Assembly: GCA_036872755.1 (NCBI GenBank)
Contig: JAVHNS010000015.1
Span: 682,001 to 746,000 of the forward strand
DNA length: 64,000 nt
From: Orbilia blumenaviensis
Taxonomy: Eukaryota; Ascomycota; Orbiliomycetes; Orbiliales; Orbiliaceae
Reading direction: 5' to 3'
Under the pieces are notes generated by a model. It was not told where the DNA came from and did not search any database. It saw only the letters and a program-made list of their open reading frames with translations. A program made the position numbers and the translations under genes. Every line of letters starts with the position of its first letter. Positions within the stretch are counted from its first letter, which is position 1. Of the stretch, positions 2,346 to 51,600 are shown piece after piece.

Positions 2346-3000
2346 TTTATGGTGGCCAAAATGTGTCTCAACGATATATAATTACGAAACCATATGGTGT
2401 CCCAAATATGTCAAAAGGGTATATAATACAAAACTGTACAAAATATATTACAACTTTACAAAAAATATATATATATTACAAATTAAACAAAGCATAAGTG
2501 TACAAATTTTCAAAACTGCAATTTAAACGAGGCATAAGTATGCTAATTTTTCACAATTATGTCCAACCATCAGCTTGCCCAGCTTATCAAAAGCCAGAAA
2601 AAAACCAGTTAACCAGCCAAACAACCAGACAGCCAAACAACCAGACAGCCAAACAGCCAGACAGAATTTAAAACGCATACGTTAGCACCTAGGTAACTAT
2701 AGTTATACTTATTAATAAAAGAAGTAGCCATTAAGCTTTTCGCTATTTAATTATTTAATTATCTGTCTATCTAACTGTCTGTCTGGCTAGCTGTCTGGCT
2801 GTCTGGCTGTCTGGCTGTCTGGCTGGTTAACTGGCTTTTCTCCGGCCCCTGATAAGCTGGGCGGGCTGGTGCTGTGGCTTCAGTCACAAATAAGAAATTT
2901 TTTATGCAAATAAGCAAAAAACCCCTATTAAAGTTGTAATATATATATTTTACACGGTGTTGTAATATATGGGATTCTGACACATTTTGGCCGCCATAAA
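2346..3000. mobile_element. Fold-back / MITE-like transposon, about 655 bp
   Basis: Terminal inverted repeats lie at 2346-2367 and 2979-3000 and match at 21 of 22 positions; the left one begins TTTATGGTGGCCAAAATG. The arms continue inward as a long imperfect inverted repeat. On the left are an A/T-rich part with repeated ATATATTACAA and a CAGACAGCCAAACAACC repeat block (about 2600-2665). On the right are its complement, tandem CTGTCTGG units (2763-2832) and an inverted ATATATTACAAC part. There is no transposase frame, so it is non-autonomous. A target-site duplication is not clear because the repeat ends merge with the flanks. Fold-back MITEs are common in ascomycetes. Confidence 0.7.
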
Positions 3001-3009
3001 ACCATGCGA

Positions 3010-3296
3010 AATATATATATTACAACTTCGCAAAATACATGTATATTACAATTTAAGCGAGGCATAAGTGTGTTAATTTTTCACAATTATGTTCGACTAC
3101 TAGCCTGCTATTGGCTCGCTCGCCTAGTTAGAGGCTGGAGAAAAGCCAGACAGCCAGACAACTAGACAGAGACAGCCAGACAGCCAGAGAGCTAGACAGC
3201 TAGACAGCCAGCATACTAACTCATATTTATTCCATTTTCCTGGCCATTTAACACGGTTTGTATTATATATGTTTTGTCACATTTTGGCCGCCATAG
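3010..3296. mobile_element. Partial second copy of the fold-back element
   Basis: It begins about 10 nt after the first element. It repeats the left-arm interior (ATTTAAGCGAGGCATAAG, ATTTTTCACAATTATGT and the CCAGACAG repeats) at about 3050-3215. It closes with another right terminus containing CACATTTTGGCCGCCATA at 3278-3295. It has lost its own left terminal repeat and most of the second arm. The open frame that crosses its right end (3269-3538) has no recognisable domain. Confidence 0.6.
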
Positions 3297-4226
3297 GAAT
3301 TGCTAAGCCAATCTCATTAATGCATGGTTTTAATCGATCATTTTCAATTCTGGATCGTATTACGTACCGTAGTGGGTTTGGGTACTTTTCTGGGACAGCT
3401 CCTGAATATGAAAACGGTTTAAAACGAAAAGCAAGCCGTCTTATTCTCTTTCAAATCGTTATTTATACTTTTTTAAGTTCTCTTTATTCTATAAACCGTC
3501 TTGAGAAACCAGGCAAAAACTCTTACAGTGTTAATTGACATGTTTAGCAGTACTATCTAGCAGATCTGTATAGTAAGTAAAGGCAGTAGTAGATAGGGCA
3601 GTAGCTAGGCAGGGCAGCAGGCATTTTGAATGCTAGACTATGGGCGTAACTGGTTTTCGTGCACTAACTTCCAGCGCGAAGTATCAATTAAGGCCTGGCG
3701 CAAATTCCGGTCGATTGGCTGAGAAATAGAAATAACGCAGTCTAGACACGAAATAGTCTATATATTCATGTTGCAAGATTGATCTGTACAAGTATATACA
3801 GCATTGTAAACTAGATATCAATGACATGTCACTATCATGATCAGTAAGCCCACTAAGCTTCGGCCGAGCCAGTTTGTATGTGATCTCGACCCGCAAGGGT
3901 GAATTACACATTTAGATTTTTACTTGATCATAGCACTAGTGGTAGTATGCCGTTCGCAAACTATAGGTTGTTTTTCAAGTGTTCGGAACAAATAACACGC
4001 CGTGCAGACACCAAAAGAAAGTGCAGACATATATATTCAATAGCGCCTGGCATGATTCACTAACGCTAAAGGTGTACAACTTAGCCACTTTAAATTGGAA
4101 TTTAAGCATCTAAACTTAGTAAAATTTGGGTGTCCCCGTTGGCCAGCCAGCAGCATCCTCATAGTGGTCCACTACCTACCCAATAAAGTTCCACAAGTCC
4201 TGAAAATCAAACGCCACGACCATTTT
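3297..4226. other. Spacer without recognised gene
   Basis: AT-rich spacer between the transposon copy and the 3' end of the minus-strand gene. I see only short unconvincing frames. Confidence 0.4.
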
Positions 4227-5348
4227 CTACGTAAAATAATGATTGTCTAGTACAGCGGGCGAGACAAGTGACTTATAAAATCCAGCCTCTAAAATATCCC
4301 CCTTCTTTGCCATTATTATTGCCAGAAGCCAGTGTGCGCAATTCTCGACAGCTCTCTGGCTCAATCCTAGATTTCTAGCTTTATCCTGTAGCACCGGATT
4401 ATCCTGGTCCACCAGCGTAGGCCAAGGTCGGGAGCAGATATCAAGCACCCTCCGGCTCTGGGACTCAGCTCGATCAAGTAGACCGTTAAATATCATTGGA
4501 GGGATAATAACGAGAATAAACCCGCATCTCCAAGCCGTGTCCCATGGGTGTCCAGAATTATTAGCCGAGAATAGTTCTACAGCCGACATAGCGTCATCCC
4601 AATTCTTGGTTTGGAGCTTAATCCGAATTAAATGCCCTATTGCGTCATATCTGCCCTTCCAGATCCTTGGGATCGAATTTCCCGGCCAAGAAAAGGTGAG
4701 ATCCACCCAGCGGGTAGTGCAGGTCTCCGCATTACAGTAATCACGTGCATGAAAAAACTCCAGGCCCCGACTAGAATAGTAGTCGACCTTTTTTGTCGTG
4801 AATTCTAAATCACGGGCTGATACATTTTTTGAAGATAGTTGACCGCCGTTCCCGGAGGAAGATGTGGCGTTGTATGTGGTAGCTTCTGCGGACGTCGAGG
4901 CGGAGGGTGCTTTTAACTTGGCCGGAGGAGGCTCCAAGCGCACATCAAAGGAAGCTTCGGAAGCCATATCGGAGTCGCCACCGCAGTATAGAGAATTTGT
5001 ATCGCCGATGACATTCCAAGTTGAACGTTTTAATAAGTCCCTAGCATCATTATGGCTTACAGCAACCATCGGCCGCGAGCTATCTGATTGAAGATATTAG
5101 TAGGCGCCGTATATATCTTTTAGATTTATTTTTGGCAGCAAGATCTTACGTTTGGGTATTTCCAGTTCTACGTCATGAACCAGCTTCTTAGTATTCACGT
5201 TCCGCCTCTTATTTTGTTCGTAGTAGAGGGCGATTCGCTGGTAGAATTCGGCTTTCCGGCTCGCAATTTGTTCGTGGGAGAGGGCGGCTTGCGGGGAGAA
5301 TTGGGCTCCCCGGCTTGCCGGCTTCTGCGACTTCCGGTCGGCCATCAT
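4227..5348 (-). CDS. Hypothetical helical-repeat protein, paralogue 3
   Basis: Two exons, 5150-5348 and 4227-5083, give 351 residues. The intron at 5084-5149 is 66 nt with donor GTAAGATC, a perfect TACTAAT branch point and acceptor AATCAG. Splicing keeps phase (65 full residues before the split codon) and removes the stop that would end exon 1. The N-terminus has HEQIASRKAEFYQRIALYY, matching the R-A-E-F-Y motif of the other two genes. A Ser/Ala-rich linker follows. The C-terminus has AHWLLAIIMAKKGDILEAGF then YKSL, nearly the same as SYFIMALIMARKEDRMEAAF then YKSL in the gene at 6396. Function unknown. It is divergently oriented to 6396-7358, with about 1 kb between them. Confidence 0.75.
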
Positions 5349-46546: not shown

Positions 46547-46650
46547 GTATATAACCACCCTCTCCCCCCCTGCTTTTCTCATCCTTCTTTTCTTTCTTTC
46601 TTTCTTCTACAACAAGAACAAGCTTACGCATATCGTGGATATATAAGCTG
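46547..46650 (+). promoter_or_regulatory. TATA box and pyrimidine-rich leader of the hairpin locus
   Basis: TATATAA at 46548-46554, followed by a C/T-rich stretch with CTTT repeats (46557-46610) and CAACAAGAACAAG, lies 97 nt before the ATG at 46651. This is the usual architecture of a strongly transcribed filamentous-fungal gene. Confidence 0.65.
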
Positions 46651-49600
46651 ATGAAAGCTACAAACGTCGCTTATATCTCATCTCTCTTCTCTCTTCTCTC
46701 TCTAGTAGGATCCGCTTCTGAACGGACCTACCCACCCTCCAGCTCCTCCGAGCTTCACGACAAAGAAAACAAAAGCCACCCAACAAAAACAAAGCTACCA
46801 AATAAAGCTTGTGAAGGTATTTTATCCGTCTATCATCAAAGTTCCACCGCCCCCCTCCCGCCGAATATCCTCAATGGCAGGCCTTCGCGGCCTAGCCATC
46901 ACAAAAAGGGGTTGCTGGCTGGATAATCCTCCAGTCAGATCTGGTCGGTGCCGCCGCACTCCCATCGGTTGGGAAATCTCGGGGAGGGGCAATTGCCCCT
47001 ACCCCCACTCCACCATCAAATCCCCGGTGTGAATTCTCTCCAAAGAGACCGGCGGGCGTCCTGGGGGAATCGTCACCCCCCCACCCAAGATTCACTCCTG
47101 GGTATTCTGGACACCCGCGGGGTTCCCCCCCCCCGGCCCCGCGAGGTGTGTGTGATATCCGACAGAGCAAAAGAAGAAGAACAGAGGGAAAAAAACTGTG
47201 GCTGGCCGATGAAAGTCAGGGATTGGATCTTTGGCTGATATCTGGACTCCTGGTTTTTTTTTTTCTCTAGTTTTTTCTTCTTGCTCTTGCGGCCAAGGGG
47301 GGGGGGAGGGGGAAGAAAGGTATGGTGGCGGTGGTGGTGGATTGGTATGTTTCCTCCCAGTCTTTATATATTATATTTTTTTGGGAGTTAATGCTAACGA
47401 CTGAATTATACAGGTGCCGGGAGATAAAAAGGTCGAAACCCGCCCCCAATTGGGGGCGAGGTTTGAGGAGGGGGCGGGGGCGTTTTCCCTCTTCATCTTC
47501 AAAGGGGGCCCGCTTACATAAAAAAACCAATCGTGGTATGCGAGGCCTGGGGAATAAGGTCAGCCCCCCAAATAAATAAAACAAAAAGGTATGTCCCCTA
47601 TAACCTACTATCAAAAATGGAAACTAAGAATAGTCGCTGATGTATAAAGATATATAGGGATGACGACATCAAGCCCTTTCCAAACCCGCGGGGTGGGTGG
47701 GTGTGCCTACCAGGGGAGGTACGCTCTCCACTCCACCCCCCCCGGGCTCCCACCCCCCCTTCATACAAGAAGAAGGCCAACAAAAAGAAGAAGATCCTCT
47801 TTTTGAGGGGTAGGAGCCAAGCCCCCCCGCCCCCGGAGGAGGATTGGGGGGGGGGGGAAGAACATTCTCTGTTCTTTTCCTTTCCATGTTGTGGCTTCGG
47901 AAAGGTGTGGGATTGTGAGCTGTTGCTATGAAACTTGATGTTGGGGTACGTATCTCTTTAATCCTCTTTGTGGTTTGTTTTTATATTGTGGTTTATAGTA
48001 TACTGATATGAGTTTTGGGTTTTTTATAGGGGTGTGAGCCCGCCCCAATTGGGGCGTGGTTCTGGGGGGCTGTGGAAGGGCAGTGGGACGGGGTCGGGAG
48101 GAGGATGATGGCCCCGGTCCCACTGTCATGGGAGCTATTGACCAAGGATTTGGGTGAGGAGGAGGAATATAAAAAGAAGAAGAAGAAGAAGCGAAAGAAG
48201 GAACAAGAAAAGAAAAGATATAAAAAAAAAGAAGGATAAAAAGAAGGGGTATACGCGGGGAAAAGGAGAAAAAGAAATTAAAAAAATAAAAGAAATAAAA
48301 TAAAAAAAATAAAAAAAAAAATAAAAAATAAAGAAAAAAAAAAGTAAGAAGAAAAGGAGGAAAAAAAGGAAGGGAACAAAAAGAAGAAGAAATCAAAGAT
48401 CGACAGAACGAAGGAGCAGAGGAGGAGAAAGACGGGGCCGAGGAAGACCTTGAGCCAGACGAGCCCTCTAGCGGGGGGCGGGGCGCCTACCCCCAATCGG
48501 GGGTAAGGCAATGTTGGATCCCAGCTGAGCTCCGCTGTAAGTAATTCCTCAATCCCCCATAAACATTTATATCAAAAAAATCCATGCTAACAATATTCAT
48601 AGTTCCACGGGGAAAATATCGGCCCGCCCCCAATCGGGGGGCGAGGCCAGGAAGCAGGCCCAGCAGAACACAGGCCACAGCGGTGGTGGGCGCCTTCTCG
48701 CTCACTACCTATGCGGGCCTGCTTCCATCCCTACCCCACGGCGACGAGGAGCCTCAAAACACATGAGGTCTGCTGTAGACACGGGGTATGTTCTCTCAAA
48801 TAAAAGCTTAATTCATAATGTATAAAGAGTTTGGAAGCTAACTAACATATTTGTTATATAGAAATTCCGTGCAGACCGAGCCGGCGGCTGCCATCGTGGC
48901 CATGGCCCAAAGTGTGGGCCTGGCCAGTCATCCCCCCGCGACGCCCCATAGTGGGCTTGCGGGTGGGAGAGGAGGGGGTGGGTTAAGCATGTGGGGCACC
49001 ACCCCATGGTGGGGTCGGGGGGGGAGAATAGGCCGGGGATGGCGAAGGTATTTCGATGCCTCGACACCCAGCAACATGTGCCGCCGGGTGGACTTCCAAA
49101 GCTAGACGAGGACGAAGTTTGGAAGTGGGATAGGGATGGGGGGATGTCCGTGGTTGTCGAGCACAACCCGGGCTGGGTTGGGCTGGTTTCAGCTGGGGCC
49201 CCGGATGGTGGCGGGGCCTACGATTGGGGGGTGGGATGCGGCCGGGGCCCAAGAGGATGGGGCCTACGGCCCTCCCCCCCCTTCTATTTGTTTGGTGGGG
49301 GAGGGGGAGGGGGCATTGCCTGCAATGCGTATGAACAATAAGGCCCCCCCCCCTCCCCCCCTTCTTCCCCTCAGCGGACCATCTGAGGACACTATGGCTT
49401 GGGGATAAGAAGAAGAAGAAAAAGGACAAATAATAGGAAGAGGAGGAAGAGGAGGAAGAGGAGGAAGAATTGGAGGAGGAGGAATACATGGGGGAGGCAG
49501 GGAGGAAGAGGAATCAGAGGAGGAAGATTGGGGAAGAATGTGCCCGCTGGGGCGTACTTAAGCCCGTACGTCGGGCTTAAGATGGTCCCGCGGGCAGAAA

Positions 49601-51600
49601 GGGAGCGGGAATTAGAGTTAGGGGGGGGGGGGGGGGGGGCAACCACAGAAGCCCCCCCGCATACGCTTCCCCGTACATGGGGATAGCGGTGTGGCGCCCG
49701 CTTCCCAGGCCTAAAGTACCTCCCTTAAAGGGTTGTGTGCTGAGGGGCCTTGGGAAGCGGGCGAGATCCTTCAAGTTAATCAGAAGGATGTGGGGAGAAC
49801 ATTTTTATATGTCCCCGGCAATATGAAGGCTTGTTTCCCAGACAAGCGATGCAGCGCCCCGGCTTCAACTCCCTCATTTCGAAGACGGGTGATTCTCCTC
49901 GGTCCGCAGACAGGATATCGTCGCTGCGAAGCTTTCGAAGTATCTGTCCTAATACCCCAATTGGGGTGGACAGCCCGCCCAGCATGGACCAAAGTGTCCT
50001 TCGCCCCCGTGGCAGTTTCCCCTGCCCGGGGGCATTATCAAACGGTCAGATGGTGCCGTTGGGAAAACTTCGGAGCTAGGATGGGGTAAGGGTCATAAAA
50101 CCAAGCCGAACCCTCGGACTATGACCCCATCCTAGCTCCGATGCACCCCATTCGTCTGGTGGCGGCGGCGGCGTGTATCGTCGTCGTAATGTGGCCCCCC
50201 CGTTGCGGCGGGGAGGGCTGGGGGATCCGGAGTTGGGGGCGCAGAGCCAAACCGAGCCCTCAGGCTCTGGGCCCCCCTCCGGTCCCCCATTGCGGTTCCT
50301 TATGGGGGGCTGGCTCGAGTAGCCAAAGCTTCAATGTGGCTGGAAGGACTGCCTCTTTTAAGGTCAGTGGTTTTTCTGGGGTATACATTGGTATTATGAG
50401 GGAATATCATGCCCCGAGCGAGAAGTTGGTGCTATGGCCGATGCAAGCCTCTCGCAGAATGTTTTTCTGTATACATATCTATCGAGGCCGGCAGTAGCAC
50501 ATTATTACGTATATACGACATGGCGCGCCGTGAGTGCCACGGGTGCCAATATTTGCAAATCCTCCTCAGGTTTGTAATGCTGGGGCGGTGTCTACTACAC
50601 CAATTCGATATTCATGATCATCGGTATCATGATCTATCCAAATAAAATTATGTATACAGTCCCATGACTATGGGATGCCCAAAGAATATGTGCGGCGTGT
50701 CCCCCTCCTCCTCCTCAAATCCTCAAAGTACAAAAAAACCACGAAAGGAGACGTTGCAACCCCAGCAAAACTTCTTTACTAATCCCCACGGATAGTAATA
50801 TCCGGGGGATACTATGGCCGCGGCTCGGCCTTTCCTGTCCGATGTTGGGGGGAGTTTCACCCGTCGCACAATGTGCGCGGGTGGGGGGAGGCCATAGCGG
50901 GCTACAACCAGCCCACACGCTATGTGCGGGTCGCGTCGAGGACAACGATCTTTTCAGTTGTCGCACGGCGGTCTGGGAGTTTTTATACCAGTTCCATAAT
51001 CTTGGGGGGGTTCGACATCCAAAACCCACCTCTGCGCCATGTGCGTGGTTGGGAGTATAGCGAATTAGAGGCGGATTCAAGGATCCGGCCGAATCCATTC
51101 GGCCGGGCCATTGGCGTCTGCACCGCCTCGTGGGAGAGGGGTGCCTAACCGCACAGAGAGGGTTGGCCCCGCGGGGTATCTACGTGATACCCCGACGGGG
51201 GGGAGGCGTGAGGGGGGGCCTCCACCACTACCACGACAGATGGTGGTAGTGGTCAGCCAATGCCATCCCCGCAAAAGGGGGGGTGGGGGGCGCCTGGCCG
51301 TGGGACAGGCGAATGGGTCGCCTGTCACTTGGCCGGCGCCAGTCGATTTGGGGGGGGTTGGTGGATGGCGAATTCATTTGGTCCACTGATGGCGGTGGTG
51401 GGGATGATATACCACAAGGACATCCGCGCTGACATAAATGCAGGTATTCATGTCATGTGGGGGGGTCCATAGAGACCATGTGGCTCTGCGGTGGTACTCA
51501 AGGTACCGGGGCGGGGGTATGCGGCGTTCGCTGAGAGGCGACGCCGCCAACCCATGCGGGGGCTGTTTCTTTTGTTCTGATTTTTGCGTGGCAGAGTAGG
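46651..51600 (+). CDS. Candidate multi-exon secreted-protein gene with hairpin-packed exons
   Basis: Exon 1 (46651 to about 46816) encodes a good signal peptide (MKATNVAYISSLFSLLSLVG, then SAS) and a Ser/Lys-rich stretch. AT-rich introns with full consensus follow: 47345-47413, 47589-47657, 47946-48029, 48537-48602, 48786-48861 (66-84 nt, GTATGT/GTACGT/GTAAGT donors, GCTAAC or CTGAT branch points). The segments between them are G/C-rich, full of homopolymers and perfect palindromes. One join is convincing: exon 48030-48536 ends YPQSGVRQCWIPAELR and continues in phase into exon 48603-48785 (FPRGKYRPAPNRGARPG). Elsewhere frames change or stop 9-20 nt before donors, and low stop frequency in GC-rich DNA makes open frames weak evidence. 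The end is not placed; 51600 is where the GC-rich character stops. It could instead be a pseudogene or structured RNA. Confidence 0.45.
46986..46999. repeat. Palindrome GGGGCAATTGCCCC
   Basis: Perfect 14-nt palindrome, flanked by GGGGA and TACCCC that extend it imperfectly. It is the first member of the G4-AATT-C4-like series in this locus, with the reverse arrangement of G and C arms. Confidence 0.95.
47116..47143. repeat. Hairpin CGCGGGG / CCCCGCG
   Basis: Perfect 7-bp stem around a loop made largely of a C-run (47125-47134). Confidence 0.9.
47441..47458. repeat. Palindrome CGCCCCCAATTGGGGGCG
   Basis: Perfect 18-nt palindrome beginning 27 nt after the intron acceptor at 47413. Confidence 0.97.
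48041..48056. repeat. Palindrome CGCCCCAATTGGGGCG
   Basis: Perfect 16-nt palindrome beginning 11 nt after the intron acceptor at 48029. It shares its core with 47441-47458 and 49954-49967. Confidence 0.97.
48488..48505. repeat. Hairpin TACCCCC-AATC-GGGGGTA
   Basis: Perfect 7-bp stem with a 4-nt loop; the stem extends to GCCT/AAGGC with one extra base. Confidence 0.95.
48622..48648. repeat. Hairpin with core CCCCCAATCGGGGG
   Basis: CGCCCCC at 48625-48631 pairs with GGGGGCG at 48637-48643, extended by GGCC on the left and GGCC on the right. It lies 20 nt after the acceptor at 48602. Confidence 0.95.
48897..48926. repeat. Hairpin TGGCCA..GGCCC / GGGCC..TGGCCA
   Basis: An 11-bp stem with a single bulged T and a short loop, in the segment after the intron ending at 48861. 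Confidence 0.9.
49541..49596. repeat. Nested hairpin, 10-bp inner stem
   Basis: Inner arms CTTAAGCCCG (49557-49566) and CGGGCTTAAG (49572-49581) with a 5-nt loop. Outer arms TGCCCGC (49541-49547) and GCGGGCA (49590-49596). Confidence 0.96.
49621..49639. repeat. G19 homopolymer
   Basis: Run of about 19 G, the longest of many G and C runs in the locus. Run lengths like this are prone to slippage and sequencing error. Confidence 0.85.
49695..49763. repeat. Long inverted repeat, 13-bp perfect stem
   Basis: CGCCCGCTTCCCA (49695-49707) pairs with TGGGAAGCGGGCG (49751-49763), extended inward by GGCC (49708-49711) and GGCC (49746-49749). The loop itself contains CCCTTAAAGGG. Confidence 0.96.
49829..49847. 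repeat. Hairpin GCTTGT / ACAAGC
   Basis: Perfect 6-bp stem, 7-nt loop. Confidence 0.85.
49954..49967. repeat. Palindrome ACCCCAATTGGGGT
   Basis: Perfect 14-nt palindrome with the same CCCCAATTGGGG core seen at 47441 and 48041. Confidence 0.97.
50003..50033. repeat. Hairpin GCCCCCG.GGCAG / CTGCC.CGGGGGC
   Basis: A 12-bp stem with a single bulged T and a 6-nt loop. Confidence 0.95.
50071..50140. repeat. 17-bp perfect inverted repeat
   Basis: CGGAGCTAGGATGGGGT (50071-50087) and ACCCCATCCTAGCTCCG (50124-50140) match perfectly around a 36-nt centre. This is the longest uninterrupted stem in the locus. Confidence 0.97.
50235..50276. repeat. Hairpin GGGGGC.CAGAGCC / GGCTCTG.GCCCCC
   Basis: 13 paired bases with one mismatch. 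The loop contains GAGCC at 50254-50258, which can also pair with GGCTC, giving an alternative inner hairpin. Confidence 0.95.
50284..50308. repeat. Hairpin CCCCCAT / ATGGGGG
   Basis: Perfect 7-bp stem, 11-nt loop; starts eight bases after the previous hairpin. Confidence 0.92.
50661..50674. repeat. Hairpin CCCAT / ATGGG
   Basis: Perfect 5-bp stem, 4-nt loop. It lies just after a TATACAG acceptor-like site at 50658. Confidence 0.75.
50782..50810. repeat. Hairpin ATCCCC.CGGATA / TATCCG.GGGGAT
   Basis: 12 paired bases with one bulged A and a 4-nt loop (GTAA). Confidence 0.96.
50858..50883. repeat. Hairpin CACCCG.CGCAC / GTGCG.CGGGTG
   Basis: 11-bp stem with one bulged T and a 3-nt loop. Confidence 0.96.
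50893..50924. repeat. Hairpin CATAGCGGGCT / AGCCC.CGCTATG
   Basis: Stem of about 11 bp with a 3-nt bulge; separated from the previous hairpin by nine bases. Confidence 0.93.
51085..51106. repeat. Near-perfect palindrome CCGGCCGAAT / ATTCGGCCGG
   Basis: Two perfect 10-nt arms separated by CC. Confidence 0.97.
51167..51200. repeat. Hairpin GGGGTATC / GATACCCC
   Basis: Perfect 8-bp stem (51173-51180 with 51186-51193) and loop TACGT, enclosed by CCCC (51167-51170) and GGGG (51197-51200). Confidence 0.96.
51225..51252. repeat. Hairpin CCACTACCAC / GTGGTAGTGG
   Basis: Perfect 10-bp stem, 8-nt loop. Confidence 0.97.
51289..51340. repeat. Nested hairpin, 10-bp outer and 9-bp inner stems
   Basis: Outer arms GGCGCC(T)GGCC (51289-51299) and GGCCGGCGCC (51331-51340). 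Inner arms GACAGGCGA (51304-51312) and TCGCCTGTC (51318-51326) with a 5-nt loop. Confidence 0.97.
51521..51547. repeat. Hairpin GCGGCG.TCGC / GCGA.CGCCGC
   Basis: 10-bp stem with one bulged T and a 6-nt loop; the last of the dense series. Confidence 0.95.

Follow-up and report, generated by a model that had tools for sequence, protein, structure and literature searches.

The window, by which the whole analysed stretch of 64,000 nucleotides is meant, contains a locus of about 5 kb that lies between the genes TWF730_003623 on the left (F-box; 100% match, the nematode-trapping fungus Orbilia blumenaviensis TWF730) and TWF730_003624 on the right. The F-box gene has relatives in A. megalospora, A. 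musiformis and O. oligospora. The consecutive numbers of the flanking genes suggest, though they do not prove, that the interval contains no annotated protein gene, and the locus seems to be unannotated. In agreement with the original prediction, a TATA box (TATATAA) can be read by eye on the forward strand at positions 46548-46554, where it is followed by a pyrimidine-rich leader. The whole predicted transcription unit on this strand comprises six exons and five introns and would extend from 46580 to 51600, both ends being approximate and placed from the introns and the zone of hairpins. The claim that at least five introns are present, all of them short, rich in A and T and complete in their consensus, was also borne out by five introns on the forward strand, which are located at 47345-47413 (consensus score 12.2), 47589-47657 (11.3), 47946-48029 (11.4), 48537-48602 (12.4) and 48786-48861 (12.9). 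One exon contains a purine-rich tract at 48160-48440, and similar tracts occur elsewhere, several of them near contig ends (C10, C17 and the first 2.4 kb of C6).

The genome contains sister loci, which the original prediction had missed. The pattern CCCCRATYGGGG is present at 14 sites in 42.5 Mb (reversed control, 1), of which five belong to the window locus, three to a locus on C3 (L016, minus strand) and one each to two loci on C18, namely C18a (L021/L039) and C18b (L022). The four remaining sites are single; three of them (L017, L018 and L020), read in part, look like ordinary genes by eye, and L019 was scored for hairpins only. The features common to the four loci are a TATA-like promoter (by eye), introns on the sense strand, GC-rich hairpins and the lack of a coding signal; at the other three loci, too, the TATA box stands near runs of G or C (by eye). 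The four loci are distributed over three contigs and are a lower bound, with at least three (one C3, two C18) besides the window locus. Searches for further members with palindrome patterns revealed no further cluster among the matches listed, and no description of such loci was found in the open-access literature that was searched. Some neighbouring elements can be mentioned here. A minisatellite with units of about 33 bp and AACCCA/TGGGTT hairpins lies inside the C3 locus (L016, about 3100-3560, minus strand), and a divergent gene that by eye looks like one for a secreted CAP-type protein lies beside the C18a locus (L021, 3000-3510). Moreover, a MITE-like short inverted-repeat element follows both the C3 and the C18a locus on the downstream side and is present elsewhere as well (L016, 837-1230; L039, 2965-3420; window, 2348-3519; L018, 3116-3281); it is probably unrelated.

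When the whole window, C3 or C18a locus was used as a DNA query, very common words being skipped, no link between the loci emerged. The window locus retrieved itself, many purine tracts, a 23-bp match of the pyrimidine-rich leader and one 34-bp match on C5, and the C18a and C3 loci matched nothing beyond themselves and the inverted arms within them. The C5 match connects window positions 50966-50999 (query 4407-4440) with C5:123578-123611 on the minus strand (34 bp, 97%, E = 6.9e-7) and does not look like a simple repeat by eye. These searches bear on the idea that the locus was invaded by mobile GC-rich hairpins or is an organelle insertion or an assembly artefact. GC-rich hairpins do recall the double-hairpin elements of fungal mitochondrial genomes, which are mobile and have recurring sequence, and this comparison had been drawn originally. 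However, the likeness proved superficial: the hairpins described here are nuclear and exonic, and no dispersed hairpin unit or same-sequence copies were found with the three of the four loci that were searched (window, C3 and C18a), the 34-bp C5 match being left unexplained. The spliceosomal introns and the presence of four separate loci on three contigs also speak against this explanation. A mobile hairpin element is not supported by the searches with these three loci, and the probability of invasion, insertion or artefact is very small.

When the four loci are pooled, 11 introns with a score of at least 11 are found on the sense strand and none on the antisense strand (mean of the shuffles, 0.0). 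Judged by consensus score, spliceosomal introns are present on one strand only, as is characteristic of a spliced long non-coding RNA. The original prediction had also considered a hypervariable secreted-protein gene that is diversified via hairpins, for which a frame of 91 codons past the TATA box with a signal-peptide-like start can be cited (46651-46926, forward strand). However, the frame that had been taken for a signal-peptide exon meets a stop within the same exon, and the three frames of the spliced exons are interrupted by 31, 43 and 30 stops. A homologue search with the 91-codon peptide yielded four candidates of similar length, none at an E value of 10 or better, and at the C3 sister locus the frame that starts from the first ATG past the TATA box is only seven codons long (by eye). 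Furthermore, the codon score is 0.037 at the window locus versus 0.13-0.21 in four coding controls; the mean best-frame score ranges from 0.005 to 0.039 in the four loci and from -0.06 to 0.01 in four non-coding controls. The signal peptide at 46651 is thus probably a chance reading frame and not a product. Given the stops in the spliced frames and the absent codon signal, a protein-coding gene for a secreted product was rejected, and we regard this explanation as extremely improbable.

The abundance of inverted repeats that had been noticed at the locus is real, as the density of strong helices lies far above chance (4.0 per kb at the window locus; local shuffles give 0.73, and eight control stretches lie between 0.08 and 0.4). 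Runs of at least six G or C occur 6.6 times per kb at the window locus and 0.08-1.2 times in the same controls. The statement that the rest of the 64 kb has nothing comparable is correct as regards the combination of features and the density over several kilobases, but not as regards short palindrome centres, of which single kilobases at 25-26 and 36-37 kb contain four and five, as many as parts of the locus. The excess is also visible in predicted folding, where 97 of the 304 fold windows in the four loci have a two-strand mean z below -2, compared with 5.3% of 245 control windows; the mean sense fold z is -1.3 to -1.75 across the four loci and -0.05 to 0.20 in three controls. A long hairpin on the forward strand at 50070-50141, with 25-nt arms that are 88% complementary and a fold z of -7.2, is not of the single-bulge kind described below.

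AATT is favoured as the centre of hairpins. In the four loci, 20 of the 77 AATT sites are palindrome centres with at least three flanking pairs (1.2 expected), any of the other 15 palindromic 4-mers is a hairpin centre in at most 6%, and in control DNA AATT is a palindrome centre at 16 of 572 sites (8.9 expected). The arms of these hairpins are diverse, as illustrated by AGGGGC, CGCCCCC, GGAGC and CGCGC, and only two of the 20 have AT-only arms. Alignment of the other 18 revealed that the fourth pair, which is outside the selection, is formed in 16. The palindrome scan also detected an extra AATT-centred hairpin at 49952-49969 on the forward strand that has no single-bulge outer stem. The orientation of recurrent loops showed no clear bias (28 in the same orientation, 24 in the reverse one); AATT is the source of many of the 5-nt pairs listed. 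In L022 (5918-7227), five hairpins have the loop AGAGGAGGA in common, and their stems differ and even shift in register. Genome-wide, the pattern SSCCAATTGGSS has 75 sites versus 25 for the reversed pattern, and such palindromes seem to be enriched beyond the four loci.

The hairpins share one dominant architecture, which the original prediction had likewise missed. The module common to all four loci consists of an outer stem of 4-7 bp, one bulged nucleotide, an inner stem of 4-9 bp and a loop of 3-10 nt. Since stems of at least 4 + 4 bp, a total of at least 9 bp and a loop of 3-10 nt were demanded, the minima of these ranges and the maximum loop size reflect the search settings, whereas the maximum stem lengths do not. 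With one G-U pair allowed, the window locus contains 20 modules, C3 23, C18a 25 and C18b, the least typical of the four loci, only 8, giving a total of 76. Their density is 3.0-4.9 per kb in the four loci and 0.13 per kb per strand in control DNA, where 257.8 kb of strand yielded 34 modules. The total pairing amounts to 9-14 bp, mostly 9-12 bp, the bulged base is A or U in 58 of the 76 modules and C in 9, and the commonest loop is AAUU (9/76).

In the window, the module scan placed all modules on the forward strand. Numbered from the left, and with the side and identity of the bulged base in brackets, they are module 1 at 46705-46731 (5' A), module 2 at 46874-46899 (3' A), module 3 at 46981-47005 (3' A, AATT loop), module 4 at 47436-47464 (3' A, AATT loop), module 5 at 48036-48062 (3' U, AATT loop, one G-U), module 6 at 48621-48648 (3' A, AATCG loop), module 7 at 48897-48926 (5' U), module 8 at 48935-48963 (5' C, one G-U), module 9 at 49146-49173 (5' U, one G-U), module 10 at 49240-49271 (3' A, one G-U), module 11 at 49664-49688 (3' U), module 12 at 50003-50033 (5' U), module 13 at 50194-50218 (3' A), module 14 at 50521-50548 (5' G, one G-U), module 15 at 50782-50810 (5' A), module 16 at 50858-50883 (5' U), module 17 at 51004-51032 (3' A, one G-U), module 18 at 51120-51144 (5' G), module 19 at 51167-51200 (3' A) and module 20 at 51521-51547 (5' U).

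The dominance of the single bulge emerges when other irregularities are admitted. Two-stem Watson-Crick composites with one irregularity number 93, and 52 of them have a single-nucleotide bulge, more often on the 5' side (34) than on the 3' side (18; shuffles, 0.9 each); the other irregularity types among the 14 listed account for at most four composites each. Scanned alone, other irregularities retain an excess of lesser size: the 1x1 irregularity is found at 8 separate sites (shuffled total, 1.7), the 5' 2-nt bulge at 7 (2.8) and the 5' 3-nt bulge at 10 (3.2), and 36 of the 38 sites with a 2+1 irregularity overlap single-bulge modules. Beyond the outer stem, six extensions of at least four pairs were obtained with all types tried. 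For the outer stems of 20 AATT/AATC hairpins, the ratio of 3' to 5' single bulges is 6:1 at three pairs (p = 0.125) and 9:1 at two. The identity of the bulged base is linked to its side (3' A or 5' T, 32; 3' T or 5' A, 12), for which a simple RNA-binding model offers no explanation.

Measured against the 11 introns, all 76 modules fall within exons, and no module extends over an exon-intron boundary. The introns had been described as free of hairpins, and indeed there are none in 738 nt of intron. However, the contrast is weaker than originally stated, as the introns are short and AT-rich and only about 1.9 hairpins are expected in them after correction for composition. For the single-bulge modules, the corresponding numbers are 0 in 756 nt and 3.15 expected (P = 0.043). 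No significant excess of pairing across splice junctions was detected.

The mismatches that are tolerated within the modules allow the two strands to be told apart, as an A-C mismatch on the sense strand corresponds to a G-U pair on the opposite strand. With one G-U permitted on the strand of the introns, 25 modules are gained (3.3 and 3.0 expected from two shuffle sets), whereas one A-C brings two (4.4 and 2.5). The direction is the same in each locus (6:1, 8:0, 6:0 and 5:1), and the ratio of 25:2 persists after removal of the C3 minisatellite. The module was isolated by exploration and the thresholds were varied afterwards; with minimum totals of 8, 9, 10 and 11, the G-U gains are 28, 25, 17 and 9 versus A-C gains of 6, 2, 2 and 2. 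Moreover, the A-G mismatch, which is tolerable in RNA, adds 12 modules versus four for its mirror C-T (shuffles, 3.7 and 3.2). The tolerance is wider than G-U, as A-A and T-T mismatches add 10 modules (shuffles, 1.9); G-G and C-C mismatches add nine (shuffles, 5.7). Since G-U is tolerated on the sense strand only, the strand that keeps the structure appears to be the one that carries the introns.

Other tests gave no such signal. In 97 structured windows, whole-locus folding showed no strand preference (z of -3.16 for sense and -3.28 for antisense). Among 222 hairpins, the first mismatched position outside the stem is G-T in 45 and A-C in 45 (42.4 and 32.9 expected), and the ratio of G-T to A-C in all long helices is 126:85 (p = 0.10 versus shuffles). 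Thus, the RNA signal is confined to the single-bulge modules.

Similar modules also differ by compensatory changes. In four pairs, which were chosen among paired modules and consist of two rows each, seven double compensatory changes, four changes via G-U and no broken pair were found; with two rows each the shuffle control is weak, the observed values being attained in 105 to 237 of 500 shuffles. Pair comparison uncovered two double changes and one A-U/G-U change between module 3 (46981-47005) and a C3 module, two double changes between module 16 (50858-50883) and a C18a module, one double change and two changes via G-U between a C3 and a C18b module, and two double changes and one via G-U between two C3 modules. 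Genome patterns for the pairs of modules 3 and 16 matched exactly only at the two known places, in each case on the sense strand. Three of the four pairs are cross-locus, out of 43 comparable cross-locus pairs in all; the third-best cross-locus identity of 0.75 was reached in 0 of 200 pairing-preserving shuffles and the best, 0.80, in 0.5%. The G-U tolerance of the modules on the intron strand and, with the reservations given, these changes support the structured RNA that the original prediction had named among its possibilities.

The same hairpins could also have a purely mutational origin, in which template switching of DNA writes inverted repeats into the unconstrained exons of a locus that is transcribed, the RNA is functionless and the introns are kept by selection for splicing. 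The equal excess of folding on both strands and the many perfect arms are in line with this proposal, and template switching is known to yield perfect hairpins in a single step (PMC8794818; PMC8604942). However, it predicts neither the dominance of the single bulge (52/93 composites) nor the AATT centre nor the 25 G-U versus 2 A-C modules on the intron strand. A decay of C to T could mimic the G-U excess but should leave more T than A, and the T-A skew over the loci (-0.10, 0.07, -0.01 and -0.11) makes no C-to-T bias on the sense strand visible. A functionless mutational array is therefore unlikely. Template switching may nevertheless be how new modules are born. Hairpins of this origin (PMC8794818) would explain both perfect stems and multi-base compensatory changes by a single event; as described there, they show no link to a class of genes, to one bulged base or to AATT as the centre.

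It is also conceivable that the transcripts are small-RNA precursors, with Dicer releasing milRNAs or siRNAs from the hairpins to act in the fungus or in its nematode prey. This possibility is suggested by longer hairpins of 45-54 bp in the C18b (901-1039 and 1570-1678) and C18a (4364-4507) loci with z values of -4.4 to -8.5. Since these hairpins were picked on the sense fold, the lower energy of that strand says nothing about strandedness. However, the common module has 9-14 bp and is short for the usual Dicer products. Furthermore, none of 4227 Rfam families reached the gathering score in the window, and none did so in L016, L021, L022 and L039; most of the sub-threshold miRNA matches lie on a single hairpin made of a G-run and a C-run, and both strands are hit. 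A small-RNA role, for which the longer C18a and C18b hairpins would be the basis, is improbable.

Taken together, we estimate with a probability of about 0.68 that the locus belongs to a dispersed family, with at least four members, of spliced genes of the polymerase II type for non-coding RNA, the exons of which would form strings of bulged hairpins and the transcription of which is predicted. From the sequences, we conclude that the four-locus family would comprise rapidly evolving spliced structured non-coding RNAs, in which the geometry of the module appears to be conserved and its letters free. The predicted transcript would be spliced, and each hairpin along the folded exons would measure about 22-35 nt and have the order outer stem, one unpaired nucleotide, inner stem and small loop. 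The combination of free letters and fixed geometry suggests a shape-reading partner. The modules could be repeated docking sites for such a protein, each offering about one helical turn and a bulge, and the RNA would be a multivalent scaffold or sponge, able to withstand a very rapid turnover of its sequence. This is the most likely role among those considered; provided that the RNA is functional, it is a tentative assignment, possible rather than probable.

Some known RNAs resemble the proposed one. The roX RNAs and the A-repeats of Xist are spliced, non-coding and fast-evolving, and their repeated stem-loops are docking sites for proteins. The likeness lies in a long spliced RNA with repeated stem-loops, which is here deduced from sequence. 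However, the repeats of roX and Xist keep sequence boxes, whereas here the stems vary and mainly the one-bulge geometry recurs; a role in dosage is not implied. The iron-responsive element has a bulged C, an upper stem of 5 bp and a CAGUGN loop, and the operators of the MS2 and PP7 coat proteins have a bulged A on the 5' side. With these elements the modules share a lower stem, one bulged base, a short upper stem and a small loop, but the bulge is mostly A or U and lies on either side, and the loops vary. The iron-responsive element itself was rejected, as the bulge is C in only 9 of 76 modules, CAGUGN is absent from the recurrent loops and there is no Rfam match. By analogy, the locus may work in a manner similar to RNAs with repeated stem-loops and be shaped like the iron-responsive element or the MS2 operator, a similarity that falls short of membership in any of these groups.

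Long non-coding RNAs usually lose detectable homology fast, and it is a standing question whether structure is kept when their sequence is lost; the four loci share geometry and little sequence. At somewhat less than even odds, the family represents a new class of eukaryotic RNA genes in which geometry is the conserved unit. A spliced nuclear transcript would then carry tens of hairpins, each of one turn and with one bulged A or U, and its letters could be replaced almost completely from paralogue to paralogue as long as a shape-reading protein or a nuclease still recognises each hairpin. If this reading is true, searches for sequence homology would miss such genes in other genomes as well. 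The agreement between the strand that tolerates G-U and the strand that carries the introns makes the question testable in a culturable fungus, and provides a geometry-based way to find such genes.
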